Source: Methylobacillus flagellatus KT (lineage in GTDB: Bacteria > Pseudomonadota > Gammaproteobacteria > Burkholderiales > Methylophilaceae). Taken from it: a DNA stretch of 64,000 nt. How positions within the stretch are numbered: the stretch's first letter is position 1; every line of letters begins with the position of its first letter. Location: NCBI RefSeq assembly GCF_000013705.1, contig NC_007947.1:992001-1056000 (forward strand). The letters run 5' to 3'. The position numbers were made by a program, and so were the translations under genes. Shown in pieces: positions 5,400 to 27,813 of this stretch. The notes under the pieces were generated by a model that was not told the origin of the DNA, did not search any database, and saw nothing but the letters and a program-made list of their open reading frames with translations.

Positions 5400-5422
5400 G
5401 CCCGGGGCTGGGCTCTGCATCT

Positions 5423-6118: not shown

Positions 6119-6347
6119 GCCTTTTCCTTCCTCCAACGCAATCTGCAGCCATCACGGCTGCCATGGCCTGTCATTGAGGGGGTGACTGTAACCCACCCTC
6201 GTGCAAAAGGCGAGGCCAAGGGGATGTATTGTCAGTTGGCTCTGACATGATTTGCAGCCCCATGCTGACGGTCAGAGCTGTCGGAAGACATTACCATGCA
6301 AGCACATCACTGGAATTACTTTCCTAATTTAACTGGAGGAGCACAAT

Positions 6348-6863: not shown

Positions 6864-6888
6864 ATCACTGCTGTAATGCATGACCAAA

Positions 6889-6921
6889 GAAGCCCGTGGT
6901 GTTTGACGGGCTTCTCTTTAT
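6889..6921 (+). terminator. Rho-independent terminator after the BON gene
   Basis: A 9-bp perfect stem GAAGCCCGT / ACGGGCTTC with an 8-base loop is followed by TCTTTATTTT. It lies between the convergent BON and lipocalin genes and may work in both directions. Confidence 0.8.
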
Positions 6922-6929
6922 TTTGGCTG

Positions 6930-7499: not shown

Positions 7500-7507
7500 G
7501 GTGGTTT

Positions 7508-7960
7508 CTATCCGGATAATGATGTTGCAATGAAGCGGTCAAGTGCCGCTGCGAACGCCTGCCGGTCTGCCTGGCTGAATGAAGCCGGGCCGCCCAGTGC
7601 CACACCGCTGCTGCGCAAGTCTTCCATGAAGTGCCGCATGGCAAGCCGCTCGCCTATGCTGCCCTTGTCATACATTTCTCCGCGCGGGTTGAGCGCGTGG
7701 GCGTCTTTTGCAATCACCTCTGCTGCAAGCGGAATATCTGCGGTAATGACAAGATCGCCTGGCTGAAGTTTTTGCACGATCTCCTTGTCCGCCACATCGA
7801 ACCCATCCGGCACCTGCAAAGCGCGGATATGGGGTGAGGGCGGTACCCGCAGCAGTTTGTTGGCCACCAGTGTGACCATGATGCCGGTCCGGTCTGCAGC
7901 GCGGAACAGGATTTCCTTCACCGCTACCGGACATGCATCTGCATCAACCCAGATATGCAT
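7508..7960 (-). CDS. yaiI: YaiI/YqxD family protein (UPF0178)
   Basis: This 150-residue protein opens with the family signature [15 protein letters not shown]. It also has conserved DxxI and [12 protein letters not shown], and a NPRGEMYD motif. The acidic pattern resembles a PIN/NYN-like nuclease fold, but no biochemical role is established. It lies between recQ and blc on the same strand. Confidence 0.9.
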
Positions 7961-7977
7961 GGCGAGTGTCCTTTGTC

Positions 7978-9813: not shown

Positions 9814-9825
9814 GCTTGCCAGGTT

Positions 9826-11373: not shown

Positions 11374-11610
11374 GCTGAAACTCCATTATTCAAAGGGTGT
11401 TTTGTCGGCCTGTTACGATGACATAACTCCAATCTAGGCAGACAGCAGGAAGGTATCTGTTAGGATTCAAGACCGCTGCGCGGATTGGATGTAGCGCAGG
11501 GAATAGGGATTATACGGCAAAAACAGGCAAGCTGTGGCCATGCAGTTTGAAAATATCTCTGTCACCATGCTGGCAAGGTGCTGATATCTGTGATGAGCAC
11601 TGCCGGGAGC

Positions 11611-12324
11611 CTATGCCTGCCGCATCGGCGCTACTGCTGCCAGCATCGCTGCATCCAGCCAGCGCCATGCCCCCGGTGCCAGGTCCTCCGGCAAATCAAG
11701 GCTGCCGATGCGGATGCGTTTCAACGCCTCCACCCGGTTGCTAACTGCGGCCAGCATGCGTTTGACCTGGTGGTATTTCCCCTCCGCCAGCGTCAGGTGC
11801 AGCACATGGTCGCCCACTATTTTCGCGGACAGTGCGGCTACCGGCGCCGGTTCGTCAAGCAGTTGTACGCCGCTCAACAGCGAGGTAACTTGCGTTTCAT
11901 CCAAAGGATGCTTGGTGGTGACCTCGTAGACCTTGGGCACCTTCCACTTTGGCGAGCTCATGCGATGGATGAACTGTCCGTCGTCTGAAAGCAGCAGTAG
12001 CCCGGTCGTGTCCTCGTCCAGCCTGCCTATGCTTTGCACCCCGCGTTCCAGCAGCGGCGCAGGCAGCAGGCTGAAAATGCTGGGGTGGTGCTGCGGCTTG
12101 TGCGAGCATTCATAATGCGCTGGCTTATTCAGCATCAAGTACGCTTTTTCCCGGTATGTCCATGTCTCGCCACGCACGGTGAAAACAAGGTGTTCTGGGT
12201 CAAATTCGGTAAAGGGGAAATCACACACCTCGCCATTTACCGCGACCTCGCCGTGGCGGATCATCGAACGGCAAATCTTGCGGGAGCCAAAGCCCTGCGA
12301 GTGCAGGATACGTTCAAGTTGCAT
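11611..12324 (-). CDS. rsuA: 16S rRNA pseudouridine synthase, RsuA family
   Basis: This enzyme isomerises a uridine of 16S rRNA (U516 in E. coli RsuA). It has 237 residues: an N-terminal S4 RNA-binding domain (ERILHSQGFGSRKICRSMI), then the catalytic domain with the Asp in GRLDEDTTGLLLL and the conserved YEV and GKYHQVKRM motifs. Other members of the family (RluE, RluF) are possible, but length and the S4 domain favour RsuA. The 236 bases between it and rhlE hold no gene. Confidence 0.9.
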   Translation of the reverse strand: MQLERILHSQGFGSRKICRSMIRHGEVAVNGEVCDFPFTEFDPEHLVFTVRGETWTYREKAYLMLNKPAHYECSHKPQHHPSIFSLLPAPLLERGVQSIGRLDEDTTGLLLLSDDGQFIHRMSSPKWKVPKVYEVTTKHPLDETQVTSLLSGVQLLDEPAPVAALSAKIVGDHVLHLTLAEGKYHQVKRMLAAVSNRVEALKRIRIGSLDLPEDLAPGAWRWLDAAMLAAVAPMRQA

Positions 12325-12336
12325 AGGGATCAGGAA

Positions 12337-12840
12337 TTAAGGTTGGTCAGTCGGAATATCGGCATCGCAGGCGGAATTCACCCACTTGCCAATGATGGTT
12401 GAGTTCTGGTTGACGGGCAGGCCCTGCGCAATGCCCTGCATGGAGATACGACCCTCGAAAGCGCTGTCGCTAAGCAAGGTCATGTCGAAGCGACCATTGC
12501 CCTGAATTGCGCCATTGCAGCTGATGTCCCCGGTGACTTTGTCGCCGCTGTGCTGGTAATTGCGCACGCTGCAACCGTCTTCCGTTTGCGGCAGCAGCGG
12601 TTGCTTGAGCTTTGCCTGCTCAGGCGTAATGCATTGCTGCGTCACGATTGCATGACCGCCGACAGGCAGTTCGATGCCGAATTGCCGCAACTGTTCCAGT
12701 TGCTCAGGCGCAATCGCGGGCAGGCCTTGTATCGTCACGGAGGTTTCCCACTGGCCCGGCTTGATCTGGTCGATGGCAAGCGCAGTGAAGGGACTGAGGA
12801 GCAAGGCGCAGAGAGATAATCTTGCAATGCGGTTAGGCAT
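12337..12840 (-). CDS. DUF3617 periplasmic protein
   Basis: This is a 167-residue exported protein with a signal peptide ending near ALA (residue 22). The mature region begins with IKPGQWETSVTIQG, the DUF3617 hallmark, and has paired cysteines (QQCITPEQ, CSVRNYQ, ISCNG). Members are widespread in Betaproteobacteria with no known role. It lies just upstream of rsuA on the same strand. Confidence 0.82.
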   Translation of the reverse strand: MPNRIARLSLCALLLSPFTALAIDQIKPGQWETSVTIQGLPAIAPEQLEQLRQFGIELPVGGHAIVTQQCITPEQAKLKQPLLPQTEDGCSVRNYQHSGDKVTGDISCNGAIQGNGRFDMTLLSDSAFEGRISMQGIAQGLPVNQNSTIIGKWVNSACDADIPTDQP

Positions 12841-13027
12841 GGGCTAAGGGAATATTGATCATGAGAAGGCAAGTATAACACCCGGCAGGCAACTACTTCC
12901 GACCGGAAAAACCAACTAGTGGCAGCATGGGGAGTTGGTCCGCAGAGGCGCCCGGTTTCCGGTTTAGAATATGCTTGGATATTCATGCATGTCCATGTTG
13001 TGCGACTCCCCATAATTTTGCGAGAAA

Positions 13028-13312
13028 ATGCCAATGAAACCCTGCATTACCTCTTTCATGATCCTTGTTTTTTGCCAAGTGCTTCCCGCTGGCGCTGGCG
13101 GGAGAAATTGTATCGATGAGGCTGGCAAGCGCCATGCCGACATCCTGGTGGAATGGTGCAAGGCAGTCAGCCCCGCCACGCATCCACCCTGCAATACAGC
13201 AAATAGCTGCGATTTGATCATAGACGAGATTAAGCGCGGCTGCGCCTTCGTCAGGCAAGAAGAAGCTTCGCCTTACTATTGCCAGCTGACCTATCCCCGC
13301 AACTACGAATAA
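13028..13312 (+). CDS. Small cysteine-rich secreted protein, unknown
   Basis: This 94-residue protein has a likely signal peptide (ITSFMILVFCQVLPAGAGG) and a mature part with several cysteines (RNCID, EWCKAV, PPCNTANSCDL, RGCAFV, YYCQL), suggesting disulfides in the periplasm. I recognise no family. ATG at 13028 or 13034 could start it; GAGAAA lies before the first. It stands alone between divergent neighbours. Confidence 0.6.
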   Translation: MPMKPCITSFMILVFCQVLPAGAGGRNCIDEAGKRHADILVEWCKAVSPATHPPCNTANSCDLIIDEIKRGCAFVRQEEASPYYCQLTYPRNYE

Positions 13313-13485
13313 GGCAAGTTAGCCATACCCTTCTTAAGGGGTTGCCTCGGATCAAGACCGCGTGGCTCAAGGGGAGAGGGACGGTAAGTGTATAATAACC
13401 ATGTTGCAGTATTGGTTAATCGGCAATCAGTCACGTGCTGGGGTTTGCCATGCAACATCTTTGTTTAATCCAGAAGTGAGTCAAA

Positions 13486-13824
13486 ATGAGCGAATTACCT
13501 AATTGTCCCCAATGCAGTTCCAGCTATACCTACCAGGATGGCGCCTTATTCATCTGCCCGGGATGCGCGCATGAGTGGACAAGCGAGGACGAAGAGGCGG
13601 CGGGCAGCGATTTCATCGTCAAGGACGCCAACGGCAACCTGCTGCAGGACGGCGACACGATTAGCGTGATCAAGGACCTCAAGGTCAAAGGTTCATCTCT
13701 TGTGGTGAAAGTAGGTACCAAGGTCAAGAACATCCGCCTGGTGGATAGCGACCACAATATCGACTGCAAGATCGACGGCATCGGCGCAATGAAGCTGAAA
13801 TCGGAGTTCGTGAAAAAGGCCTGA
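13486..13824 (+). CDS. yjdM: YjdM/PhnA family zinc-ribbon protein
   Basis: This 112-residue protein has an N-terminal zinc ribbon ([21 protein letters not shown]) and the conserved C-terminal domain ([55 protein letters not shown]). It was once called alkylphosphonate-uptake protein PhnA, but the biochemical role is not established. It sits 3 bases upstream of csaA in the same direction. Confidence 0.92.
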
Positions 13825-17145: not shown

Positions 17146-17237
17146 CGGTTTTCTCCTCCGTGTAGCGGGTGTTTTACGCGAGCTGTGAGCGATGAATCGA
17201 GTAAAATGGTCCGGTCTCAAGCTGCGTGCGATTTTTC

Positions 17238-17387
17238 ATGACATTTAAACATATCACCTCCCGCGATAACAGCCTGTTCAAGCAATTGAAAAAACTGGCC
17301 GACAATGCACGAGAGCGGCGCAAACACAATGAAACCCTGCTCGATGGGCCGCACTTGCTCACGGCCTATATGGAAGCCTTTATATAG
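17238..17387 (+). pseudogene. 5' fragment of a TrmH/SpoU-family RNA methyltransferase
   Basis: Forty-nine codons match the start of a 2'-O-ribose RNA methyltransferase (ITSRDNSLFKQLKKLADNAR, then ETLLDGPHLLTAYMEA), the substrate-binding domain that precedes the SpoU catalytic domain. The frame then hits TAG and similarity ends. The normal protein is about 250 residues, so more than 80% is missing, and the remainder is not found at the far side of the prophage. It marks the left junction between host and prophage. Confidence 0.75.
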
Positions 17388-17547
17388 AAGTTCCGCTAGA
17401 TAGACAAGGTAACGGCCAAGCAACAGGCGGCACTTTTGAAGATAAAAGCACCGAGGCATCTTGCCATAGCAAACCCGTTGCAAAAGGCATCGCCAATATA
17501 GATTGCATGGTTTTCATCGACAATGAAAAGACCGTCACCCTTACGTT

Positions 17548-17625
17548 TTAACGCTTGATAAAACGGCCTGTACGCTTCGAACGTGCAGGCTTTTTTGTTG
17601 CCTTACGCTTTTTTCTGGTAGCCAT
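17548..17625 (-). CDS. Prophage 25-residue highly basic peptide
   Basis: This very short frame encodes a peptide of which more than half is Lys or Arg (MATRKKRKATKKPARSKRTG, then RFIKR). AAAGGG lies 9 bases upstream of the ATG. It overlaps the end of the preceding 54-residue gene by 23 bases in another frame. The composition suggests a nucleic-acid-condensing or packaging peptide, comparable in style to small basic core peptides of other viruses; that is inference. It is the last gene of the late block. Confidence 0.6.
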   Translation of the reverse strand: MATRKKRKATKKPARSKRTGRFIKR

Positions 17626-17767
17626 ATCTAACAACCCTTTCCAGTGAATCTATACGACGATGTGCTGTATCAACATCCCTGCGCAGGTATTTGATATGCA
17701 CTCCGATGGCGGCATAACTGCCCACGAATGAGCAGAGCGCCGCCAGCCCTGGCATCAGCCAATCCAT
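17603..17767 (-). CDS. Prophage holin-like small membrane protein
   Basis: This 54-residue protein has one N-terminal membrane helix (LMPGLAALCSFVGSYAAIGV) followed by a charged helical tail (HIKYLRRDVDTAHRRIDSLE). This single-helix plus coiled tail is common in phage holin or spanin-like lysis proteins. Its ATG overlaps the stop of the previous gene (TAATG). The frame stays open for 62 codons after the stop, to 17417, without a start codon. Confidence 0.6.
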   Translation of the reverse strand: MDWLMPGLAALCSFVGSYAAIGVHIKYLRRDVDTAHRRIDSLERVVRYGYQKKA

Positions 17768-17904
17768 TACAGAATAGCCATTACCACAGCGCCTACCGCA
17801 TTCACGGTATTTGCTGCCTGCTCACCAAAGATCGCACCAGCAGCAACGCCGATTGCGGCCCATGTACTACGCGCATCAAAGAGCGCTTTCAATTTCTCAC
17901 GCAT
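17767..17904 (-). CDS. Prophage 45-residue membrane protein
   Basis: This short protein has a basic N-terminus (MREKLKALFDARS) and an Ala/Gly-rich hydrophobic remainder (WAAIGVAAGAIFG ... VGAVVMAIL). A GGGGGG tract lies just before the ATG. It could be a virion membrane peptide or part of the lysis cassette. No family is recognised. Confidence 0.6.
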   Translation of the reverse strand: MREKLKALFDARSTWAAIGVAAGAIFGEQAANTVNAVGAVVMAIL

Positions 17905-17916
17905 ATTCCCCCCGAG

Positions 17917-18309
17917 TTACCAAGAACCGGTAGCACCATGCCCACCGAATGAGCCGCCACCGCCTATAAAATCAACCTGCCCACTGGTGAACAAGTCATT
18001 AAATTGCCATGCGATAAAATCGCCCGCATCGCAATATCTTGAAGCGTCCCAAGAATTACCTAGACGCTTTGCCATTTCGCATTTGCTCTCATTGGTGCGA
18101 GGCACCCCCAGCAGGTCGCCAACACCCACCACCACCCCGCCCCCAACGCTCCCAGCGAGACTACCAACACCGCTAATTGCACCCGCAACCGCATCTTGTG
18201 CCGCTGCCGCCACACTGCCTTTTTTTATGATGTACAGAGCGACCCCCGCCGCGCCCAACATCCAGAACCAAGGCGGGATTGCATCCAGTGCTTTCAGCGC
18301 CTTATACAT
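17917..18309 (-). CDS. Prophage membrane protein with Gly-rich C-terminus
   Basis: This 130-residue protein has an N-terminal membrane helix (PPWFWMLGAAGVALYIIKK), an Ala/Gly/Val-rich middle and a glycine-rich tail (GGGGSFGGHGATG). Two cysteines (KCEMAKRL, RYCDAGD) lie in a compact soluble part. The start at 18309 is preferred over 18336 because GGGGTC precedes it and it overlaps the stop of the upstream gene. It is probably a virion membrane component; no homologue is recognised. Confidence 0.65.
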   Translation of the reverse strand: MYKALKALDAIPPWFWMLGAAGVALYIIKKGSVAAAAQDAVAGAISGVGSLAGSVGGGVVVGVGDLLGVPRTNESKCEMAKRLGNSWDASRYCDAGDFIAWQFNDLFTSGQVDFIGGGGSFGGHGATGSW

Positions 18310-18481
18310 TGATGACCCCGTTGTTATTTGTCGCATTGTTGCCCGTTATATTGTCCGACCATGACGGCGCGTATTGCGTGGGCCAGAACAAAGCCTGTTC
18401 CGTCTTTTTCTGGTAGCGCGTCAGCAGCAGGAATGCACCAACGCCAAGGCCAACCACGGCCAGAATCTGAATTGTTTTCAT
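18302..18481 (-). CDS. Prophage 59-residue one-helix membrane protein
   Basis: It starts with a hydrophobic helix (IQILAVVGLGVGAFLLLTRY) followed by KK and a polar, Asn-rich tail (NITGNNATNNNG). This fits a small type of virion-membrane protein with the tail on one face. It overlaps the next gene by 8 bases. Function unknown. Confidence 0.6.
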   Translation of the reverse strand: MKTIQILAVVGLGVGAFLLLTRYQKKTEQALFWPTQYAPSWSDNITGNNATNNNGVINV

Positions 18482-18490
18482 ACGTTCACC

Positions 18491-19126
18491 TTATGCAAGA
18501 AACAGCGCCCGCTCATTGGCACGGCGCTTGACCAAACCGGCCATGACAACGCCGCCAGACATGCGCCACGCCGGGAATTGATTCGCGGCCCCCTGATAGT
18601 CCCCGGCATTCAGCAGCTTGAGCAGTGTTGAGCGGCTGAAAGCGCCTGAACCTACGTTGAACACGAATGACACCAGGGCGTCATATTGATTTTGCGTCAG
18701 CGGCACCTTTACCAAGCGATTGACGGCGGATTCTGCATCAACCAGATCAGATACCAGCAAGCGCGTTGCTTCCGCTTCCGTGATCGTCCATAAATCCTCA
18801 AACGTCCCGAGCTTATGGCCGTACCCGATTGTTGGATAACCTTTCGCCTTTTGCCCCCTGGCAAGCGGCTGGCCTGTTGCATCGTCATATCTGACAAGCT
18901 TTAAGCCCTCTTCTTGTTTGATTTTTGCCAGCCCGTTAAGGCTTATGCGCATTCCAGATGCTGGCATTACTGTATTGCTCATTTGAAGAAAATCCCCCGT
19001 AATTCCATCAAGCCAGCCCGTACCCTCGCCGTCCGGCGTTGTTACAGTGTCGCTATTGTTGAGATAGCGCCAGATCATATAACCGCCGAACCCCAAGGCA
19101 AGGCCGGTAATGATGTTTTTAAGCAC
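18491..19126 (-). CDS. Prophage membrane-anchored GH24 lysozyme (endolysin)
   Basis: This enzyme cleaves peptidoglycan for virus release or entry. It starts with GTG at 19126, since AAGGGG lies 7 bases upstream and the GTG overlaps the previous stop. That gives 211 residues: a Gly-rich N-terminal membrane helix (IITGLALGFGGYMIW), a linker, and a T4-type lysozyme domain from about residue 60. The catalytic triad is visible as Glu73 (KQEEGLKL), Asp82 (RYDDATG) and Thr99 (YPTIGYGH). The weak hydrophobic anchor suggests a signal-anchor-release endolysin or a virion-associated enzyme. Confidence 0.9.
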   Translation of the reverse strand: MLKNIITGLALGFGGYMIWRYLNNSDTVTTPDGEGTGWLDGITGDFLQMSNTVMPASGMRISLNGLAKIKQEEGLKLVRYDDATGQPLARGQKAKGYPTIGYGHKLGTFEDLWTITEAEATRLLVSDLVDAESAVNRLVKVPLTQNQYDALVSFVFNVGSGAFSRSTLLKLLNAGDYQGAANQFPAWRMSGGVVMAGLVKRRANERALFLA

Positions 19127-19340
19127 CGGCCAGCCCCTTGATGATGGTTTGCGCCTGGAGTAAGTCATCTGGCGACATATCGACAACGAGCATTGGCAGA
19201 TGGACGGCCAATTGCGCGGCGCTGATGCTGCGCGATGTTTCTTGCTCTACTTCTTGCGATTCGCCGCCACCCTCCACAACTACGGTAACAACTTCACTCA
19301 CTGTTAAATTGCCGTATTCATCGAAAGTAAAAGTTTTCAT
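19119..19340 (-). CDS. Prophage 73-residue acidic protein
   Basis: This is a small soluble protein beginning MKTFTFDEYGNLTVSEVVTV with a Glu/Gln-rich middle and a C-terminal helix. The start at 19340 is chosen over an ATG at 19352 because GAGGAA lies 7 bases before it. It overlaps the lysozyme GTG start. Function unknown; it could be a small virion or spike-associated protein. Confidence 0.55.
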   Translation of the reverse strand: MKTFTFDEYGNLTVSEVVTVVVEGGGESQEVEQETSRSISAAQLAVHLPMLVVDMSPDDLLQAQTIIKGLAGA

Positions 19341-19348
19341 TTTTTTCC

Positions 19349-19708
19349 TCATAAAAGCGAGTAAATAACCTGCATCATTCCACCATCCCGATTTTTGTTA
19401 CTGATGAAATACACCCCCAAACCAGCTGGCACAAAAAATTCCCTATCCAGCTTCAAAATATCGGCATCGCTGTTTGTGAAAGCAGAATATCCAGATGTAA
19501 TTGCCAGCGCCTGACCATCAAAAATATTTGCCGGCGCACTAGTCTTTACAATCAATGACGAAAGAACCGCCGGCCCCCGCACCATGGATGCAGCTGCATG
19601 AATGATGCAGCCCCTTGCATTTGCGGCAGGTGAGATGACTTCTTGAGCCACATTTACCCCAGCAACTATGCCAGCCAACCAGCATGCGCCGTATCGAATT
19701 GGCCTCAT
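19349..19708 (-). CDS. Prophage 119-residue candidate virion surface protein
   Basis: After an N-terminus that resembles a short hydrophobic segment (YGACWLAGIVAGVNVA), the protein is beta-rich (VLSSLIVKTSAPANIFDG, FFVPAGLGVYFISN, GGMMQVIYSLL). The end pattern resembles that of the preceding 199-residue protein, where a beta region also ends the chain. The two could be related surface or spike domains. This is inference from pattern only. Confidence 0.5.
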   Translation of the reverse strand: MRPIRYGACWLAGIVAGVNVAQEVISPAANARGCIIHAAASMVRGPAVLSSLIVKTSAPANIFDGQALAITSGYSAFTNSDADILKLDREFFVPAGLGVYFISNKNRDGGMMQVIYSLL

Positions 19709-20307
19709 CAGTAGCTACCCTCCCACACCATGACATTCGGATTGCTGGCAGCATTACCTATGGCGATCAAGACGCCAGTGAACACGGCACCGCCTATAAA
19801 TTCGATGCTTTCACCCGGCCCCAATTCCCAACCATTGCCCACGGATACCGAGCCAGAGGAAACCCAAATAGTGCCGACCTCATCCTGATTTTTTATAGAT
19901 ATAAATGCCCGGTTCGGATTGACCGCGGCCAGCTCCCCGGCTGATGTTGTAATCGTCCGGCGCACAAGGTTACTATTGCCAACTTGCACCGCACTACGCA
20001 GATTGTTGACATTCACCCCACCCGGCACCGAGACTCCCCCGGATACTTTGGCAGAGCCGACACGCGCCCCGCCGGTGCCGACAAACAGGCGTATTTCCTC
20101 TTCCCCTACCCCACCATGCCCCAATATCAGTCGCTTGAATTCGCCGATATTGGCCTCTTCCCCTTCATCTAAGGTGAAGTCATCGCCGTTTTCCGTGCGG
20201 ACGCGCACCGGGACAAGGGCTTTTTCAATGCGGATATAGTCGCCAGTCAAAGCCGGTATTTCTTCCCCGCCCGCCTGGACTTTAAACGTATAAAGTTTGA
20301 GACTCAT
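19708..20307 (-). CDS. Prophage 199-residue candidate spike/vertex protein
   Basis: This soluble protein has an N-terminal domain (about 1-80, charged, beta-rich), a Gly/Val linker (GGARVGSAKVSGGVSVPGG) and a C-terminal beta domain (ITTSAGELAAVNPNRAFISI, ELGPGESIEF). A glycine hinge between two beta domains is a layout expected of spike or receptor-binding proteins of tailless viruses, such as PM2 P1 at the vertices. No sequence match is claimed. It lies among structural genes and shares one base with the next gene. Confidence 0.55.
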   Translation of the reverse strand: MSLKLYTFKVQAGGEEIPALTGDYIRIEKALVPVRVRTENGDDFTLDEGEEANIGEFKRLILGHGGVGEEEIRLFVGTGGARVGSAKVSGGVSVPGGVNVNNLRSAVQVGNSNLVRRTITTSAGELAAVNPNRAFISIKNQDEVGTIWVSSGSVSVGNGWELGPGESIEFIGGAVFTGVLIAIGNAASNPNVMVWEGSY

Positions 20308-20308
20308 T

Positions 20309-20773
20309 TCAGCGCTTCCGATTGAAGTAGAAATAGAGCGCGGCCAGCCCGGCCACTACCCACAGTGTTTTGTTTGTCAGCTTTTCTTGCGTCAGCTCGG
20401 GATTGGTGGAATCAGAGACGTATTGCATGGCCTGATTGCCTGCCTTTTCTGCAAAGCCGAGTGCCTGAATATTGGCCTGCTGTACCGCATCCAGAAACTT
20501 GACCGTCAACCCGGCCACGGTATCGACGGATTTACCAGCAAGATCAATCGCGCCACCGTCCAGAAAGCTGATTACAGAATTTGCCCCCGCCGAAAAATTT
20601 CCGCCAAAGAAGGTTCCATCCCCGATATTGACGCCCTTGCTACCCGCGACATTGTTCACAGCCAGAGGCGTATCAATATCTTGAAGGGTTAGAGGCGCCT
20701 GGATATTTTCGTTAAATGTGGCACTGGCTGACCCCTTGTAACCCGTTAAACTCACCGATTCAGGCATTGCCAT
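20309..20773 (-). CDS. Prophage 154-residue membrane-anchored structural protein
   Basis: The N-terminal two-thirds is polar and Gly/Asn-rich (GSKGVNIGDGTFFGGNFSAG). A helical part follows, then a single C-terminal membrane helix with a positive end (LWVVAGLAALYFYFNRKR). It is probably anchored in the internal virion membrane. It abuts the preceding gene without a gap. No family recognised. Confidence 0.6.
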   Translation of the reverse strand: MAMPESVSLTGYKGSASATFNENIQAPLTLQDIDTPLAVNNVAGSKGVNIGDGTFFGGNFSAGANSVISFLDGGAIDLAGKSVDTVAGLTVKFLDAVQQANIQALGFAEKAGNQAMQYVSDSTNPELTQEKLTNKTLWVVAGLAALYFYFNRKR

Positions 20774-21124
20774 TTACAGCCACCCTCTCTTTTTTGCATA
20801 TACAAACCCCAGCCCGATCGCCGCCAGCACGGCGATATGAATCGGGTTTTCGAGATCAATCAGCGGCTTGTTATAGACTGGTGCACTGGTGTTTGTCGGT
20901 GCAAACGCGCCCAGCCCCGAATATGCCGCGCTGGAATTGGTTTCCGTATCAGAACCGAACAAACCGCCACCCCCACCTAATAAAGCCAGCCCGGCAAGCC
21001 AGGGATTGCCAGAGGCGAGCGCACCCGCTCCGGCTGCACCTGTTGCGCCTGCCGCCCCGCTGGCATAACCGCCCCCGACCGACCCCCACGAACCCGGAGC
21101 CACAAGGCCAGCAATTCCCGCCAT
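20774..21124 (-). CDS. Prophage Gly/Ala-rich membrane-anchored protein
   Basis: This 116-residue protein has long Gly/Ala-rich runs (GGGYASGAAGATGAAGAGAL), a polar stretch, then a C-terminal helix with basic end (HIAVLAAIGLGFVYAKKRG). The same C-terminal anchor plan is seen in its two neighbours, suggesting a set of proteins linking capsid and membrane. Its ATG overlaps the stop of the 92-residue gene by one base. Confidence 0.6.
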   Translation of the reverse strand: MAGIAGLVAPGSWGSVGGGYASGAAGATGAAGAGALASGNPWLAGLALLGGGGGLFGSDTETNSSAAYSGLGAFAPTNTSAPVYNKPLIDLENPIHIAVLAAIGLGFVYAKKRGWL

Positions 21125-21402
21125 TACTTACCACGCAGCAGCATGAAGCCCACAAGGCCAGCACCGGCAATCACGGCCACCCATAACAGGCGGTTATTGC
21201 TGGCGCTGGTGTTTGCTTGCAGGGCTTGTGCCTGCATTTGCGCTTGCAGTGTGAGCAACGAGGCTTGGTTCTGCCATTCGGCCTGCTGCTGCGTGGTTTT
21301 TGCCACGCCTTTGGCGATTTCTTGCTGGTTCCAGAAGGCGGCAATATCCAGCGCATCCTTAATGCTGAACGCTTTTAAATCGTCCCATAGCTGTAGCGCC
21401 AT
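21124..21402 (-). CDS. Prophage 92-residue coiled-coil membrane protein
   Basis: A helical, Gln/Ala-rich body (TTQQQAEWQNQASLLTLQAQ, then MQAQALQA) leads to one C-terminal membrane helix (LLWVAVIAGAGLVGFMLLRG). It lies directly downstream of the capsid gene, 9 bases away. It is probably a minor virion component at the membrane. Confidence 0.6.
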   Translation of the reverse strand: MALQLWDDLKAFSIKDALDIAAFWNQQEIAKGVAKTTQQQAEWQNQASLLTLQAQMQAQALQANTSASNNRLLWVAVIAGAGLVGFMLLRGK

Positions 21403-21411
21403 GATGCCCCC

Positions 21412-22218
21412 TTAAGCCCAAACGGCCAGTGTCTCAGCGACGATATTTGCCAAACCGGCAGTATCAAATGTCATTTTGAGTCGCAGATCGGACACGCCGC
21501 GCGTATTCAGCAGGTCGCCCGCATCGCCTTCAAGCAGGAAGTCAATATGTGTTGCCTTGCCTGTTTGCGGTACGCGTGGCACCGGATAGACGTTTTTCTG
21601 AGCACGCTCAAGAATCGGCTTGGTAGCATCGATCACCTGGACGCCATCAACCAGCAATTCCACATTGCTAATATCAGACTTGAAGATATGGATAGCCTTG
21701 TACACGTCACCAGACTTCGGCAATTTGTCGTTTTCGACTACGCCAGATACAGCGCTTGAAATGCCGTAATCGCGGATTTGGGTATATACGCCCAGCTTTT
21801 GCGGCACGGTATCAATGAACGCTTGTGCCTTCATGGTGATGTCCGCAGGCGCACCGGCTGCGAGTTCCAATTCCACAGTGAAGGTTTGCAGATCATCAGT
21901 ACCGAACGCTGGCGCTCGCTTGTAGGCAAGCTGATCGTAGGCGTTATCCGTGAAATGAATCATGAACTGATTCACGGTATCAGGGCTGCGGCCATAGTAG
22001 GCATTCAGATCAAACAGGCGTTGCAGGCTGGCAAAAGTTTGTACTTCCTTGCCATTGGCGAGAACGCGAATTTTGCCGATGTCGGTTACGTCCAATCCTG
22101 TACCTGTCACAGAAAACAGGATGTTGTGATATGTGGGCTTGATTGGAATCTCAAGCACGGCAGTGCTACCAGCAACAACACGGCTGATAGAGGGCAGTTT
22201 GATATGCTTTTTAGCCAT
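21412..22218 (-). CDS. Prophage major capsid protein, PM2 P2-like double jelly roll
   Basis: At 268 residues this matches the length of PM2 P2 (269), the double-jelly-roll capsid protein of corticoviruses. From memory of PM2 P2, the same landmarks occur in the same order: an N-terminal LPSISRVVAGSTAVLEIPI, a KIRVLANGKEVQTFASLQ strand pair, a mid-protein YKAIHIFKSDISNVELLVDG that opens the second jelly roll, and a C-terminal HIDFLLEGD followed by DLRLKMTF and a final VWA. No alignment could be run. It heads the structural block after a 59-residue membrane protein. Confidence 0.85.
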   Translation of the reverse strand: MAKKHIKLPSISRVVAGSTAVLEIPIKPTYHNILFSVTGTGLDVTDIGKIRVLANGKEVQTFASLQRLFDLNAYYGRSPDTVNQFMIHFTDNAYDQLAYKRAPAFGTDDLQTFTVELELAAGAPADITMKAQAFIDTVPQKLGVYTQIRDYGISSAVSGVVENDKLPKSGDVYKAIHIFKSDISNVELLVDGVQVIDATKPILERAQKNVYPVPRVPQTGKATHIDFLLEGDAGDLLNTRGVSDLRLKMTFDTAGLANIVAETLAVWA

Positions 22219-22227
22219 GATGCCCCC

Positions 22228-22407
22228 TTATGCAGCCAATGCGGTGTTGACGTATGGAATTTGACGGGCAACGATCATGCCCAGAACGCCAAGCGCAGCG
22301 CCCTTTACATGATTACCCGGCGCGAACTTGTAAACAGCAAAAGCGATGCCCGCACCGATGGCGATAGTAACCCACTTGCTATTTGCTGTTGTGGTTGTGG
22401 AATCCAT
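22228..22407 (-). CDS. Prophage 59-residue two-helix membrane protein
   Basis: This short protein has two hydrophobic segments (WVTIAIGAGIAFAVYKF and GAALGVLGMIVARQIPY) and a good AGGGG site before the ATG. It is the first gene of the late block and lies 9 bases upstream of the capsid gene. It is probably a virion membrane protein. Confidence 0.65.
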   Translation of the reverse strand: MDSTTTTANSKWVTIAIGAGIAFAVYKFAPGNHVKGAALGVLGMIVARQIPYVNTALAA

Positions 22408-22473
22408 TTAAAACCCCTGTTAGTTAGAAATAAGTTATGACAGGGCGAAGATTGCGACGAAAGCCGCGCCGCG

Positions 22474-22500
22474 TATATAGGCGGTAACGGTTACGGTTAC
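22474..22500 (-). promoter_or_regulatory. Candidate prophage late promoter with GTAAC/GTTAC repeats
   Basis: Between the ATPase terminator and the first late gene, the minus strand reads a TATATA box (22474-22479) just downstream of three GTAAC/GTTAC units in 17 bases (22484-22500). The repeats lie where a -35 box would be, and no good -35 is seen, so activator-dependent transcription is plausible. The prophage zinc-finger protein is a candidate activator. Confidence 0.4.
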
Positions 22501-22503
22501 AGG

Positions 22504-22529
22504 AAAAAGGGCCATTTTTGGCCCTTTTC
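22504..22529 (-). terminator. Terminator ending the prophage early block
   Basis: A 9-bp stem (AAAAGGGCC / GGCCCTTTT) with a 6-base loop lies 23 bases downstream of the ATPase stop codon. On the minus strand it ends in TTTTTCC. It separates the early genes from the late structural genes. Confidence 0.75.
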
Positions 22530-22551
22530 TTTACAAACTTTTACACTTTTT

Positions 22552-23178
22552 TCATCGAAAAGTGAGTTTTGACCCTGTTACCTGGCCCGTCAATGCGTCC
22601 TTATGCAGGTATTCCAGCGGCTGCAAGTGAGCAATGCGCTCCCTAGGCAGGCCGGTTTTCTTTGCCATGTAATCGACATCCGACCCGGTAGCAGCGCGGA
22701 ACACGTAGAAATCTGTGGCGTTGCCTATGGCAGTCTTATCTGCCTCTGCCCAGCGCTGGGATATGGGGAACAGACTGATACCCCGCTTCAGGCCGCGCCG
22801 CACCAGGATGCCCCAGCCCTCGGGTGCCTTGCTCATGGTTGTCACGTCTGCCAGTTCTTCCAGCACAGCGGCACACTCGCCGAAGTACGAGCCGTAATGA
22901 AACACAGCCCGGCAGAATCTATCGAAGTCTGCCTTCATGTCGCCCTGGCTGACGTAGGCATATTTGCCCGGCTTGCCTTTCTTGACCACTTCCAACAGAT
23001 CGGCAAATGCAGTAATGCGCTTATAGCCCTGCAACTTGCTCCACTGGTCCTCAATGTCCCACACGAACACGGCCTTGAATTTGCCCTGGCGCACGAGGCG
23101 CACCGTCATGGCCGTTTTACCCGACCGGCTGGCCCCGGACATGATGCATAGCCGTCCGTCCCTTGTCGCCAACGTCAT
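22552..23178 (-). CDS. Prophage DNA-packaging ATPase (FtsK/HerA-like, P9 type)
   Basis: This is a 208-residue P-loop ATPase, close to PM2 P9 in size. The Walker A is GASRSGKT at residues 15-22, followed by a strand and VWDIEDQW. Walker B is AAVLEELADV near residue 95, with the acidic pair. A later conserved ISQRWAEADK resembles the sensor region with Gln and Arg. In tailless membrane-containing viruses this enzyme drives genome packaging. It overlaps the preceding gene by 4 bases and closes the early block. Confidence 0.85.
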   Translation of the reverse strand: MTLATRDGRLCIMSGASRSGKTAMTVRLVRQGKFKAVFVWDIEDQWSKLQGYKRITAFADLLEVVKKGKPGKYAYVSQGDMKADFDRFCRAVFHYGSYFGECAAVLEELADVTTMSKAPEGWGILVRRGLKRGISLFPISQRWAEADKTAIGNATDFYVFRAATGSDVDYMAKKTGLPRERIAHLQPLEYLHKDALTGQVTGSKLTFR

Positions 23179-23663
23179 GACGCGTACCTATCCACGTCTG
23201 CCGCGCATTCATCCGCCGGGACTGGCTCGTATTGCGGCGCTGGCTCTGCTGGCTTTTCTGGCTCTTTTTCCGGTTCCGGCTTTTTCAAATCCTGCTGCAC
23301 GGCGTTGACTGTTGCCATGGTGAGCGGCATTGCCACGGCGAACAGCGCCATTTCCTCGACACCGGCGCCGGATTCCAGAAAGGCCAGCACCCTGCCGCCC
23401 CATGGGTATTTGCGCAGCACAGGCACGGCGGCACCGGCAAAGGCGTTGCATGAATCTTGATTCCAGACGGCGGCGGTATTGCGCATGCCGCCAGCCAGCA
23501 AGGCCAAATGTCCGATTTGCAGCAACCCGGCAAGGCTTTGTTCGGCGCTGATTTGTGGCACCGGCCCGGCTTCCTGCCCCGGCTCCGCTGTTTCTTGTAC
23601 AGGCTCATCCGCCAGCATTTCAAGCTGGGTTTCCGATGCGATTTGTTCAGGTGTTTTTTCCAT
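23175..23663 (-). CDS. Prophage 162-residue membrane protein
   Basis: An acidic, Glu/Pro-rich N-terminus is followed by two hydrophobic segments (AGLLQIGHLALLAGG at about 45-60, and MALFAVAMPLTMATVNAV at about 105-123) and an acidic Pro/Glu-rich tail (KKPEPEKEPEKPAEPAPQYE). Both ends probably lie on the same side of the membrane. It sits directly upstream of the packaging ATPase, so a role as ATPase partner or membrane-assembly protein is possible. No family recognised. Confidence 0.6.
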   Translation of the reverse strand: MEKTPEQIASETQLEMLADEPVQETAEPGQEAGPVPQISAEQSLAGLLQIGHLALLAGGMRNTAAVWNQDSCNAFAGAAVPVLRKYPWGGRVLAFLESGAGVEEMALFAVAMPLTMATVNAVQQDLKKPEPEKEPEKPAEPAPQYEPVPADECAADVDRYAS

Positions 23664-23665
23664 GA

Positions 23666-23986
23666 CTAGAACTCCAATGAGAAACCGGCTTTTTTCTGCG
23701 CTGGCTTCGTTTCAGGTATCGGCGCGGGCTTGTTTTCCGGCACCGGCGTTGCTGTTACGGTAACAGGCGGTTTTTCCTGTTTCGGCTGCATGGCCTGGGC
23801 AATGTGCGGATACTGTTTCAGGAACGCATCCACGCGTCGGGCTTTTCCGCCTACCCGCAATTGGCCGTCACATGACGCTTCACAGAAGCCGAACGGCGCA
23901 CCGTTTTTGTCGGACGTGATACGCATGCCATTGGCCGTGCCGCAATATGGGCAATTGATATGCCCTAGAATGGATTTTTCAGACAT
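23666..23986 (-). CDS. Prophage zinc-finger protein, candidate transcription activator
   Basis: This 106-residue protein has an N-terminal four-cysteine zinc motif (CPYCG ... FCEASCDG) and a Pro/Lys-rich C-terminal tail. The start at 23986 has GAGGTG 4 bases upstream. PM2 encodes a zinc-finger transcription factor (P14) that activates late genes, and this protein holds a comparable place in the early block. The functional link is inference; a topoisomerase- or primase-type zinc ribbon is an alternative. Confidence 0.65.
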   Translation of the reverse strand: MSEKSILGHINCPYCGTANGMRITSDKNGAPFGFCEASCDGQLRVGGKARRVDAFLKQYPHIAQAMQPKQEKPPVTVTATPVPENKPAPIPETKPAQKKAGFSLEF

Positions 23987-24143
23987 GCAGCACCTCAAGA
24001 TCATCGGGGTTCACCCAGCGAATTGAGCCGTTGACCATGATGCCCACGTTGCCTTTGCCGCTGACCTGGCGCACCTGGCCGACTATTTCCGGCCTACTCA
24101 CCACGCGCACCAATTGGCCGCGCACTATCTCTTCAAGCGTCAT
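23979..24143 (-). CDS. Prophage 54-residue small beta protein
   Basis: This short frame (MTLEEIVRGQLVRVVSRPE ...) has an alternating pattern (GQVRQVSGKGNVGIMVNG, IRWVNPDDLEVL) resembling an SH3- or KOW-like beta barrel. AGAGGGAAAA precedes the ATG. It overlaps the zinc-finger gene by 8 bases and the 69-residue gene by 11. It may be a small DNA- or RNA-binding protein; no match is claimed. Confidence 0.6.
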   Translation of the reverse strand: MTLEEIVRGQLVRVVSRPEIVGQVRQVSGKGNVGIMVNGSIRWVNPDDLEVLHV

Positions 24144-24342
24144 TTTTCCCTCTCATTTCCAACTTTGTGACAATCTCAGCCAGCAACTGCACCTGAAAAT
24201 CATGCAGCACCATGACAGCCGCCCCCAATTCCTCTACTGCTGGCACCTTTTGAAACATCGGCGCGTGCTTCGCTTTCTCTGAAAGCACTTCGACCACCCG
24301 CATTTGGCGCTGCAAACGCGCCATTTTCTCTACCATCGCCAT
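24133..24342 (-). CDS. Prophage 69-residue helical protein overlapping rep
   Basis: This frame encodes a helical, amphipathic peptide (MVEKMARLQRQMRVVEVLSE, LHDFQVQLLAEIVTKLEMRG). It shares 143 bases with the 3' end of the replication gene in another frame. The overlapping end of Rep is low-complexity, so this frame may be the constrained one. Function unknown. Confidence 0.5.
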   Translation of the reverse strand: MAMVEKMARLQRQMRVVEVLSEKAKHAPMFQKVPAVEELGAAVMVLHDFQVQLLAEIVTKLEMRGKNDA

Positions 24343-25891
24343 TCCCCCGGTTACAGTTATTTACAGAACTCCAAGCGGGCCTAACGGCCCTCTTTAAAAC
24401 CCACTCGCGCAAGCGAGTTTTGACGTAATCGCCCCAGCGCGTTTCCAATCCTTCAACCCTCTCCATCCCCGCCCCGTCATAGCGCGTCATGGCCTCATCA
24501 AACCAGACCCGGCGCACCTTCACGGCGTGAAACCTGCGCTTTGCAAATGCCCCACCCATCAGCGCCGTATAGCCTGCCCAATCGCCCGCATCAGCCGCCG
24601 CCACAAGATCAGGCAGAATTCCGCCCATCTGATCGTCGCCAGCATCGCCAAGGCGACGAAGCTCACGCCATACGCCCACCCCTGCACCGCCGATTTGCTG
24701 GAACTGCCGAATTCCCCAGCAAGCAGCCCAAGCGTCAACCCGGACAGCATTGCCAGTAACAGAACCACCCTCAAAGTCATCAGCATCCTCAAGCCCTTTT
24801 CCATTGATATTTTTTGATATGTACTTAGCCAGATAGCCCACCGCAGACCCCTTTTTGCGATCAATAGGCTCAAACTTGAAACGGTGTTCAGACGCGCCGA
24901 ATTCGTCGCCATCCTCACGCAGGGCATAATGACGCAACACCTCGCGCACTCGCTCGACGTGCGCAGGCTGCATAAACAGCACCATATGCCAGTGCGGCGT
25001 TCCATCATGGTGCGGTTCGACCACGCGGAACCCGTAGACCTTAATACCCTCTTTTGCCAGCGCGGCGCGTGACAATGCCCAGCCCTTGCACAGGTGCGCT
25101 TGCGCCTCGCGTGGTGTTTCCGCCTTGTATTTGGGATTTGGTTTGCCATCAGACCGGACGGCGTGAAAACGGCTAGGGGCCGTGATGGTGTAGAACTCTG
25201 CTGCATGACCGTGAGTGCGTGAGTAGGAATCAAACCCGGCCATGCGCGCCATCAATTCCATGCGCCTAATTTCAGGATTGGAGACGCCCAGCGCGGAAAG
25301 CTGGGCAAGTGTGTATTCCTGGCCCTCATCATTGACGGCGAGGATTGTTTCCAGCAAGGCCGCATTGCGCCGCCGCTGGCCCTTGCGCCGCGCTACGGTT
25401 TCATCGCTGGAATAGATACCGGCCCGTTTGCTGACCATGCCAAGGTTGATTGCCGCAGCTTCGACCTGACGCCCCACCACCTTGCGCAACTGCCGCCGCC
25501 ACCACAATTCGCAGCACAACCGCGCCCGCTGGCCGGACTTCTCGACACCCTTGAATTGCGGCTTGATGCCGTACTTTTCTGCAAGCCCAATCATGGCCCT
25601 GAGCGCTAAATCGGCATCTTTCCAGTACCCGGCCAGCCTAAAGCACTCATCCGCCCGCGCCTTGGCATAAGCGCATATCTCATCATCGCTTGCAGCCAGC
25701 AGCGCTTTGTTTCCGCCGATGGCTTCCGTGATGTCAAGCAAGGCAAGGTTTGCCGCCGCCCTGCCCTCTCGCTGGTAAAGCTCTACATACCGCCTATTGA
25801 TCGCAGGCTTGAACCGCTTGGGATATTTGGCGAAATGGGCGCGGATATGCTTGTGATCCAACCACTCGCCGGTTACTTCAATTGCCAGCAT
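24200..25891 (-). CDS. Prophage rolling-circle replication initiator (HUH endonuclease)
   Basis: This 563-residue protein nicks the origin and primes rolling-circle replication. Near residue 300 the HUH motif reads HWHMVLF, and near residue 355 the tyrosine motif reads YLAKYISKN, with two tyrosines four apart. That places it in the phiX174 gpA / P2 A / PM2 P12 superfamily. The N-terminal 200 residues are helical with RRK-rich segments. The last 60 residues are Gly/Asn/Arg-rich and look disordered. It shares its first base with the upstream gene's stop. The genome ends or nick site were not found. Confidence 0.88.
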   Translation of the reverse strand: MLAIEVTGEWLDHKHIRAHFAKYPKRFKPAINRRYVELYQREGRAAANLALLDITEAIGGNKALLAASDDEICAYAKARADECFRLAGYWKDADLALRAMIGLAEKYGIKPQFKGVEKSGQRARLCCELWWRRQLRKVVGRQVEAAAINLGMVSKRAGIYSSDETVARRKGQRRRNAALLETILAVNDEGQEYTLAQLSALGVSNPEIRRMELMARMAGFDSYSRTHGHAAEFYTITAPSRFHAVRSDGKPNPKYKAETPREAQAHLCKGWALSRAALAKEGIKVYGFRVVEPHHDGTPHWHMVLFMQPAHVERVREVLRHYALREDGDEFGASEHRFKFEPIDRKKGSAVGYLAKYISKNINGKGLEDADDFEGGSVTGNAVRVDAWAACWGIRQFQQIGGAGVGVWRELRRLGDAGDDQMGGILPDLVAAADAGDWAGYTALMGGAFAKRRFHAVKVRRVWFDEAMTRYDGAGMERVEGLETRWGDYVKTRLREWVLKRAVRPAWSSVNNCNRGNGDGRENGAFAAPNAGGRSAFRESEARADVSKGASSRGIGGGCHGAA

Positions 25892-26175
25892 CAGGCCGCA
25901 ACCCTCGCACCTTTTGGCGGCTCAATGCCCCAAAAAAGAGGATCATTCAACAGTTCGGAAAACGCGATTAATTCCGCCTCGTTATACCGCCTGCCCTTCA
26001 ATTGTGTAGGCTCAAACAGATGCAACTGCCCCGAACCGTCCCGCACGTCCCACAGCTCGACAAAGACCAGAACAACATGCGTTTGATCGCATATTCTGAC
26101 GTCCCGCACCCTGCCGAACCGGCCAGCCTTGGAACCTTCGCAGACGTTTACCAGCGTCCCGGCCTTAATGAACAT
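25891..26175 (-). CDS. Prophage 94-residue protein, unknown
   Basis: The N-terminal half is beta-rich with a small-barrel look (GTLVNVCEGSKAGRFGRVRD, HVVLVFVELWDV), followed by a helical end (NEAELIAFSELLND). It overlaps the 68-residue gene by 11 bases. It may be a regulator or replication accessory protein. No family is recognised. Confidence 0.55.
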   Translation of the reverse strand: MFIKAGTLVNVCEGSKAGRFGRVRDVRICDQTHVVLVFVELWDVRDGSGQLHLFEPTQLKGRRYNEAELIAFSELLNDPLFWGIEPPKGARVAA

Positions 26176-26371
26176 CGGCCATCACCATGCGCACAGGTGC
26201 CAGCTTTTTAGCTGCCTTGCAGCACTGTTCCTCGTTGCGAATTGCGCCGTTCAGAATGTCGGCAAGGTATTCAGAGAAGGAGATTTCAGCGCCGGTAAAG
26301 GCTACGTATTGCAGGCGGCATGCCTCAATACGTTTGCGCTGCATTGCGGATAGTGGAAATTCATAGACCAT
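26165..26371 (-). CDS. Prophage 68-residue first gene, possible regulator
   Basis: This small helical protein (SAMQRKRIEACRLQYV, FSEYLADILNGAI, CCKAAKKLA) has GAGGG 6 bases before its ATG. It is the first gene after the early promoter region and could be a ribbon-helix-helix or other small DNA-binding protein acting on the palindromes upstream. That is inference from size and place. Confidence 0.55.
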   Translation of the reverse strand: MVYEFPLSAMQRKRIEACRLQYVAFTGAEISFSEYLADILNGAIRNEEQCCKAAKKLAPVRMVMADVH

Positions 26372-26387
26372 TTCAAGCCCTCGCAGT

Positions 26388-26400
26388 TGGTTGTCAACCA
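26388..26400. promoter_or_regulatory. Palindrome in the prophage early leader
   Basis: A perfect 6+1+6 inverted repeat (TGGTTG T CAACCA) lies 17 bases upstream of the first prophage ATG. It could be an operator or a leader hairpin. Confidence 0.35.
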
Positions 26401-26415
26401 GCGAGAAATTGAAAC

Positions 26416-26442
26416 GTTATAGACAGTGTGCAGATTGCACAC
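26416..26442 (-). promoter_or_regulatory. Candidate early promoter with operator palindrome
   Basis: On the minus strand a TATAAC box (26416-26421) lies next to a perfect 7+3+7 inverted repeat, GTGTGCA GAT TGCACAC (26426-26442), which covers the -35 position. No strong -35 is seen. The arrangement suits a repressor-controlled early promoter driving the 68-residue gene and Rep. Confidence 0.45.
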
Positions 26443-26490
26443 CGGGTAAAAGGTTAGATTGTTGTAAATTAAGAGATTAGTTAGCTAAGT

Positions 26491-26518
26491 CACTGATTCA
26501 GTGTATATTATGTAAAAT
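26491..26518 (+). other. dif-like XerCD recombination site (candidate attR)
   Basis: TGTATA (26502-26507) followed by TTATGTAAAAT (26508-26518) matches the centre and XerD arm of the proteobacterial dif site at 16 of 17 positions. The left 11 bases (CACTGATTCAG) do not match the XerC arm. Such half-degenerate sites are what phages integrating through host XerCD leave on the virus side. No second copy was found at the left end. Confidence 0.65.
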
Positions 26519-26559
26519 CTGATCGGGCCTCTTTCCGACAAATTAATGAGCCAGGAGGC

Positions 26560-27813
26560 TTGGGAGGACGATCAGAAATGGATCGATGCCCAGGTGTTGT
26601 AGCGACAGAAGCAAATTCTGCTCAATGTGGCGGTCGCTGGCGTCCTCGAGAGTTCGAGTATTGGGGAATTGAGCCAAGGTTAGATATTAGTCACAACTTA
26701 TTTGGAGTAGAAAGTGATGCAGTCCTTGGCTTGCGCTACCATAGGGAGACCCAAGATCGAAATCAATTTAGAGGAGCGGATCCTCGATTTCAAAGTTTAA
26801 GTTATGCAGAAAGTTTTTATGGAGTAAATGGGGGAACTGGACACAGAGAACAAGTAGATATTGATGTTGAAGCTAAGTCTTACTATGCACAAAATACCTT
26901 TTATCTCGGTAATTGGTCATTAACACCAGGCATTCGTGTAGAAGATATTAGAATTTCTACAAATGTGAAACGTGCCGAAGGTCAGCCACAAAATAATCCT
27001 GAGTCTGACCTTACTAACAATCAGACTAAGGTGTTACCAGGTTTTGGTGTGGCATGGAGTGGTATCGAAAACACGACTGTATTTGCAGGTGTTCACCGAG
27101 GGTTTGCACCTCCACGGCCTGATCGTGATATATCTGCTGGTGGCGCTAATACTGCAGTTGTTGCTAAAACAAAACCTGAGGAGAGTACCAATTGGGAGTT
27201 AGGTATTCGGTCTAATTATTTAAAAGGGATTAGCTATGAAACCACCCTTTTTCATACTCAATTTGATGAAATCGTAATCAGCGATGGTTTTGGCTCATTC
27301 AGAAATGGAGGGGAGTCTCAGCATTCTGGTATCGAGGTGGGCGGACGTATTGACTTTGGTACCATCTACAATACTTCTCATAACTTCTATATCAGTGGAG
27401 CATATACGAATCTCTTTACTGCTAAGTTCAAGAAGACTAGCCTTGATGATGACATTCGCAGTGGTGATCGTCTTGCCTATGCACCCAAGCATATTGCTTC
27501 CCTGAGCTTTGGTTACGAGCACCCGATTGGTTTTAATGCACGTATAGGTGTGGATTACGTGAGTGAACAGTATGAAGATGTGCCCTTCCGTGAGGGACGT
27601 AGTGAGTATGATCCACTCAGTGGACAGAGTGGCAAGATTCCATCTTACACACTGGTTAACGCTTCTCTCAGCTACCGTCCAATAGGCAGCAAGGCAACCT
27701 TCTTCGTCAGCGGGCATAACCTGGGTGACAAGGAGTATCTGGCAACCCGTGTCGATGGCATGCATGCTGGTCGTCAACGCCAGGTGTTCGGCGGTGTCCG
27801 TTACGATTTCTAA
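26560..27813 (+). pseudogene. TonB-dependent receptor, 3' fragment
   Basis: About 415 codons match the C-terminal barrel of a FecA-like TonB-dependent siderophore receptor: RWRPREFEYWGIEPRL, FAGVHRGFAPPRPDRD, ESTNWELGIRSNYLKG, NASLSYRPIG and a terminal Phe (VRYDF). The plug domain, TonB box and signal peptide are missing, since family members are 700-800 residues. Only a TTG at 26560 could start it, and no ribosome-binding logic supports it. Codon use is AT-rich up to about 27480 and then resembles the host. It marks the host DNA right of the prophage. Confidence 0.8.

Follow-up and report, generated by a model that had tools for sequence, protein, structure and literature searches.

A PM2-like prophage of Methylobacillus flagellatus KT: a left-truncated second copy, an interrupted receptor gene and dif-like ends

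The group typified by the Pseudoalteromonas phage PM2 (Corticoviridae, order Vinavirales) is characterized by an icosahedral virion with an internal membrane, a P2-type double jelly-roll coat protein, a IX-VII-II gene block with a P9-type packaging ATPase, a circular genome of about 10 kb and a P12-type rolling-circle replication initiator (Rep), the last of which is not universal in the group. Krupovic and Bamford (2007; PMC1950889) reported thirteen PM2-like prophages across eleven genomes, and the part of their report available to us lists M. flagellatus KT with two absolutely identical PM2-like elements and a phage-type lysozyme. The window analyzed here is a stretch of 64,000 nucleotides of that genome (NC_007947.1, positions 992,001 to 1,056,000, forward strand), which is a single contig of 2,971,517 bp; coordinates refer to the window unless given as genome positions. 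An initial annotation, made from the sequence alone, had described a minus-strand element at 17388..26518 as a tailless PM2-like prophage whose gene set might define a new genus. The host, the two identical copies, the P2/P9 block and the lysozyme equate this element with the KT elements of PMC1950889, as far as these are described in the text seen, so novelty is not supported and a new class of element is rejected, the prophage having been in print since 2007. In its running text, figure and supplement aside, the accessible portion of that report makes no mention of a duplication, a truncated copy, a receptor gene or an attachment site. The present analysis adds how the two copies are arranged, which gene the insertion interrupts and the dif-like nature of the ends: the window copy is the second, left-truncated copy of the prophage described in 2007. 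We consider it probable, at roughly 85%, that a single Xer-type insertion of a PM2-like phage into a TonB-receptor gene was followed by a 143,032-bp tandem duplication that truncated copy 2.

PM2 itself resembles the KT element in genome size, coat protein (27-29% identity), ATPase, Rep family and gene order, and it carries a DUF3653 gene (orf a is so labelled) and a dif-like core on the same side. It differs in that the KT element has an endolysin-type lysozyme of its own, lacks a recognisable P1 spike and has no counterpart that we could find of the helix-turn-helix gene orf c. Judged by the coat protein (33-35%), the nearest phages in isolation are the Vibrio phages NO16, assigned to the 'Asemoviridae' in the portion of PMC9966536 consulted, and PG21; like the KT element, they are 10-10.6 kb in size with a DUF3653-type gene, whereas neither matches the KT Rep at the cut-off used. 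A further relative in lifestyle, the Rhodobacter phage Jorvik, is described in the available part of PMC10589892 as tailless, without an integrase, and with dif-like attP/attB sites that vary and lie away from the true dif, all as in the KT element; the replication, regulatory and lysis genes given in that description set it apart.

Core genes and relatives of the element

From the open reading frame (ORF) list, 21 minus-strand ORFs were chosen and each was scanned with Pfam and PHROGs. They are small and closely packed from 17603 to 26371, as had been claimed, and run in the order rep, Cys-rich protein, 162-aa ORF, ATPase, 59-aa ORF, coat, small ORFs, two candidate spikes, lysozyme and further small ORFs. 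This order follows the PM2 map, several of the equivalences being by position alone. Coat protein, ATPase, Rep and gene order together support the identification of the element as a tailless PM2-like prophage, in agreement with the initial annotation.

The 268-aa major coat protein (21412..22218, minus strand) matches both P2 families of Pfam far above cut-off (P2_N, 1.3e-41; P2_C, 1.1e-28) and, among PDB sequences, 9t9v (3.7e-35) and PM2 P2 itself (2vvf, 9.5e-13), which indicates a PM2 P2-like double jelly roll as predicted. The 208-aa packaging-type ATPase (22552..23178, minus strand) shares 33% identity with the NO16 ATPase (1.5e-25) and 29% with PM2 P9 (8e-16), again bearing out the earlier assignment; its only PDB matches are kinases, at 3e-4 and worse. 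Between the two genes lies a 59-aa ORF (22228..22407, minus strand) in the place of PM2 gene VII, so that the IX-VII-II block is present as P9-type ATPase, short ORF and coat gene. The predicted replication protein is confirmed as a 563-aa initiator of the Phage_GPA / PM2 P12 family (24200..25891, minus strand; Phage_GPA 2.2e-88), in which 42% of 435 aligned residues are identical to PM2 P12 (3e-104). In its complete form, the integrated prophage measures 10,120 bp between its attachment sites.

No tail, portal, HK97 coat or integrase gene was found among the 21 ORFs with Pfam or PHROGs. Three labels point the other way and are misleading: PHROG 2666 names the ATPase 'terminase large subunit' (3.3e-23), as the PM2 record does P9; the lysozyme domain draws weak tail-lysozyme PHROG matches (9.3e-07 and weaker); and the 92-aa ORF receives a 'Neck1' label at 0.073. 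Apart from these, the absence of tail, portal and terminase genes holds as claimed, and the element is not a tailed phage.

Coat identity to 12 aligned homologues is 24-39%. In a coat tree of 17 rows, with some open forks, the element falls on a long branch together with L038, L039, NO16, PG21 and the PM2 clade (96/94); the single autolykivirus in that tree lies across the 96/94 branch, and the element does not group with the Autolykiviridae. The suggestion that it represents a separate genus is plausible on this identity range and branch length, both taken from the coat protein. Close coat relatives were found neither in genome contigs nor in viral contigs, searches from which records near the window may be excluded. 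In whole genomes, the coat protein occurs in one of 187 genomes of the family (its own) and in seven of 399 of the order, KT among them, while P2_N is found in 4/369 genomes of the class, again counting KT. The order and class searches gave ten places outside KT, nine of which were extended, the partial match L025 being left out. The Rep query retrieved 36 loci from viral contigs, none of which is matched by the other proteins at 1e-3; at a cut-off of 10 the coat protein matches L057 with a printed E value of 8e-13, at odds with the null result at 1e-3. A separate observation from these searches is that one genome of the same order (G322) carries two different PM2-like elements (L032 and L037), the coat proteins of both being distant from that of KT.

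Two copies, an interrupted receptor gene and a tandem duplication

The coat gene occurs at genome positions 870,383 and 1,013,415, in identical form and 143,032 bp apart, the window holding the copy at 1,009 kb. The other, complete copy occupies genome positions 865,356-875,475 (10,120 bp) and interrupts a TonB-dependent receptor gene: the 5' part with the plug domain lies to its left (L003 8370-9355), and the 3' part with the barrel lies to the right of both copies (26508..27813 in the window, plus strand). Joined at the arm, the flanks give one open frame with no inner stop. Full open frames of 747-802 aa are present in six of the seven receptor relatives outside the KT genome. A predicted protein motif spanning the insertion site was recovered in three of eight loci searched, all of the same genus (L046, L048 and L050), among which the L046 frame is shorter at 512 aa; L045 is the KT 3' part itself, and L047, L049, L051 and L052 miss the pattern despite frames of 747-790 aa.

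To the right of window position 17370 the two copies agree in 17,663/17,663 bases, and to the left they are unrelated. The joint at 17370..17371 fuses the 5' piece of an SpoU/TrmH-type ribosomal RNA (rRNA) methylase gene (17226..17371, plus strand) to the prophage interior, the partners overlapping by two bases (AT). An intact 264-aa version of this methylase gene (Pfam SpoU_methylase, 1.2e-36) ends the second repeat unit (L006 6258-7052, near genome position 1,152,400), and the host DNA preceding it equals the host DNA before the joint in 6,403/6,403 bases. The unit from prophage interior to methylase interior therefore stands twice in tandem, at genome positions 866,338-1,009,369 and 1,009,370-1,152,401. 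The best explanation is an illegitimate joining, with the 2-bp overlap, that duplicated 143,032 bp from the prophage interior to the methylase interior. Two identical prophages can thus stem from one insertion and a large host duplication, and the joint of a rearrangement can pass for a phage end. The latter is the case for the span initially assigned to the element: its right end, 26518, is the exact end of the dif-like arm at 26508-26518, while position 17388 does not mark an end of the phage, and the copies part at 17370-17371.

Had the phage inserted twice independently, the second time into the methylase gene, the differing left neighbours of the copies would be accounted for. This is contradicted by the shared flanks: on the right, both copies are followed by the same host sequence over thousands of bases; the host sequence ahead of the joint is likewise present twice; and copy 2 starts, on its left, 982 bp into the phage, with no attachment site there. 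We reject this alternative as next to impossible. An assembly error would be consistent with the absence of any difference in the 24,066 bases compared, a comparison made at the unit ends only; set against it, the genome is one contig, the joint is a novel sequence whose two partners each exist in whole form at another place, and two elements were already counted in the seen part of PMC1950889. An artefact of this kind is very improbable.

A repeat of such size is reportedly described in the genome paper of M. flagellatus KT.

The truncated window copy lacks the left 982 bp of the complete copy, comprising the left attachment site, the DUF3653 gene (4.2e-20 in the complete copy), a 61-aa ORF and most of a 124-aa lipoprotein-like ORF, from its 5' end. 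The 3' remainder of the latter stays at 17372..17538 (plus strand), and its whole form (L003 10145-10519) shows a weak PHROG match, mainly in its signal-like start, to a Cor superinfection exclusion protein (9.2e-05). Because the left attachment site was lost with these 982 bp, the window copy would be unable to leave by Xer recombination. Whether the element has decayed into a functionless remnant bears on the same data: the missing 982 bp, the lack of activity data and the failure to find a close relative speak for decay, whereas intact open frames for the core genes and the completeness of the other copy speak against it. We regard decay as somewhat doubtful and a working phage as likelier, the virion form and phage activity being inferred.

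dif-like ends and the mode of insertion

Both ends of the complete copy carry a dif-like XerD arm, of which the window copy retains the right one alone. At its left end, the complete copy has the sequence CTTAGTACACA GTTTTA TTATGTTAAAT. The right ends of both copies read CACTGATTCAG TGTATA TTATGTAAAAT, found in the window at 26491..26518 (plus strand) as an odd XerC arm, a TGTATA centre and the XerD arm TTATGTAAAAT. An exchange at the border between centre and XerD arm gives a deduced phage site CACTGATTCAG TGTATA TTATGTTAAAT, the last 17 bases of which equal dif. Exact matches to TTATGTNAAAT number five in the genome, of which three are ends of the PM2-like prophage and two flank an inovirus at dif. 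The argument rests on the place of these sites, not on their number.

Elements that use host Xer (IMEX) have dif-like sites at both ends, lack an integrase of their own and depend on XerC/XerD for integration. The KT element contains no tyrosine-recombinase (PF00589) match, and dif-like ends are present as a pair in the complete copy only. The host XerD and XerC genes score above NCBIfam curated cut-offs. PM2 carries CGTGCTTACGA TTTATA TTATGTTAAAT at position 747 (minus strand), inside the small orf b and flanked by orf a and orf c; it shares the 17-base core with one mismatch, and the text available from PMC9966536 names this site as a presumptive dif. Among the nine related loci, three have the coat gene between two dif-like sites 10.9-11.8 kb apart, and in each pair the XerC arm is normal at one site and odd at the other. 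Host-Xer integration has been proposed for NO16 (PMC9966536) and for Jorvik, there also away from dif (PMC10589892), in the parts of these reports that were accessible. As the phage lacks an integrase and bears a dif-like site in its early control region, host XerC/XerD most likely inserted it; this is the best explanation, Xer catalysis being inferred.

A number of observations weigh against this interpretation. The deduced host site offers only a fair XerD arm, its centre GTTTTA being poor, and searching the window strictly for dif, with at most 3 mismatches allowed in 26 bases, gave no hit, only the XerD half being good. A reversed-pattern control for TTATGTNAAAT yields four sites, and the number by itself is therefore no proof. 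The best dif-like cores of NO16 and PG21 are weaker than that of the KT element, differing from the 17 bases at 4 and 5 places, respectively. One dif-like site was found in three of the nine related loci and none in another three; L036 and L038 are short contigs and L039 starts near a contig end, where a missing site may equal a missing end. The consulted portion of PMC11630473 reports that integrases are frequent in tailless prophages located at dif and calls host-Xer use inconclusive. Finally, nothing in the analysis indicates phage activity.

An insertion independent of Xer, by homologous exchange or by another recombinase acting at the short shared sequence TATTATGTnAAATC, would fit ends that share only about 14 bases and a genome that encodes other tyrosine recombinases, including an integron integrase. 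It is unlikely in view of the identity of the shared bases, which are the XerD arm of dif, of the repetition of 17 bases of dif in the deduced phage site, and of the occurrence of such sites at like places in PM2 and several related prophages. The notion of a XerD-only site in phage TLCphi is contradicted by PMC5357621 in the part seen and was dropped.

Under the preferred reading, a temperate, tailless, PM2-like phage with a genome of 10,120 bp would have entered the M. flagellatus TonB-receptor gene once, inserted by host XerC/XerD at a sequence that by chance offered a XerD arm. By analogy with PM2, Rep would start rolling-circle replication, the Cys-rich protein would help to turn on the late operon, P2 would form the capsid around the membrane with the ATPase serving in packaging, and the lysozyme would open the cell. 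More tentatively, the phage may normally target dif and Xer may here have used a chance site in the receptor gene, perhaps since the inovirus held dif; the duplication might then have frozen a non-excisable copy that keeps the whole late operon without the DUF3653 gene and the lipoprotein, possibly as a deregulated copy or a helper for the complete one. One finished genome of a harmless methylotroph offers a clean test of chromosomal entry by integrase-less tailless phages, the material being one copy that is complete and has its two sites, one that has lost a site, and a true dif with another Xer user.

Remaining genes and further observations

The right, early part of the window copy begins with two ORFs of 94 and 68 aa (25891..26371, minus strand). 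Beyond Rep, two small overlapping ORFs (54 and 69 aa; 23979..24342, minus strand) precede the 112-aa Cys-rich protein (23666..24004, minus strand), by position the probable counterpart of PM2 P14. An early zinc finger had been proposed here: no Pfam family exceeds its cut-off (best zf-tcix, 0.0021), but similar proteins lie near Rep in five of the nine related loci. The adjoining 162-aa ORF (23175..23663, minus strand) takes the place of PM2 orf h by position and has a weak relative in L037 (7e-4).

On the late side of the coat gene, three small ORFs (154, 116 and 92 aa; 20309..21402, minus strand) correspond by position to the PM2 III-IV-VIII-j region, the 154-aa ORF matching PM2 orf j only weakly (0.032). 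Two candidate spikes follow. The 199-aa ORF (19708..20307, minus strand), a candidate by position, has no match in the phage collection and one PHROG of unknown function (6.5e-06); its structural model, beta-rich in the N-terminal 80 residues, is of low confidence (mean predicted local distance difference test score, pLDDT, 49) and too weak to use. The 119-aa ORF (19349..19708, minus strand), placed by position only, belongs to no Pfam or PHROG family. The spike assignments are thus unsupported. Beyond a 77-aa ORF of unknown function (19119..19352, minus strand) lies the lysozyme (18491..19186, minus strand), which has a hydrophobic N-terminal stretch and was correctly recognized (Pfam Phage_lysozyme, 2.8e-42). 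Four small ORFs (54, 45, 139 and 59 aa; 17603..18481, minus strand) close the late end in the position of the PM2 VI-k-l region, the 54-aa and 139-aa ORFs having relatives in other loci. The description of many one-helix membrane proteins is soft, as four of 24 proteins reach a 19-residue Kyte-Doolittle mean of 1.6.

In NO16 and PG21, genes that bear the label S-adenosylhomocysteine hydrolase (L018 3558-3989 and L019 1-417) match the KT DUF3653 protein at 1e-6 to 8e-6, and judging from these matches the hydrolase label may be wrong. At the true dif of KT sits an inovirus-like prophage (Zot, 4.8e-13; secretin, 5.6e-23; Rep) with 8,985 bp between its XerD arms (L016, about 4640-13652; genome 1,564,640-1,573,652). 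The part of PMC2731167 seen lists a dif for M. flagellatus KT, which we found as the same sequence at the same place; since the inovirus is seated at the true dif, the listed site is the left, hybrid site of the inovirus. The genome further encodes an integron integrase (TIGR02249, 2.4e-146; L091 1102-2106, genome about 417 kb). At genome positions 1,393,753-1,394,199 (L092 and L093), a tyrosine-recombinase match is divided between two neighbouring pieces, one with an inner stop, and looks like a broken gene.

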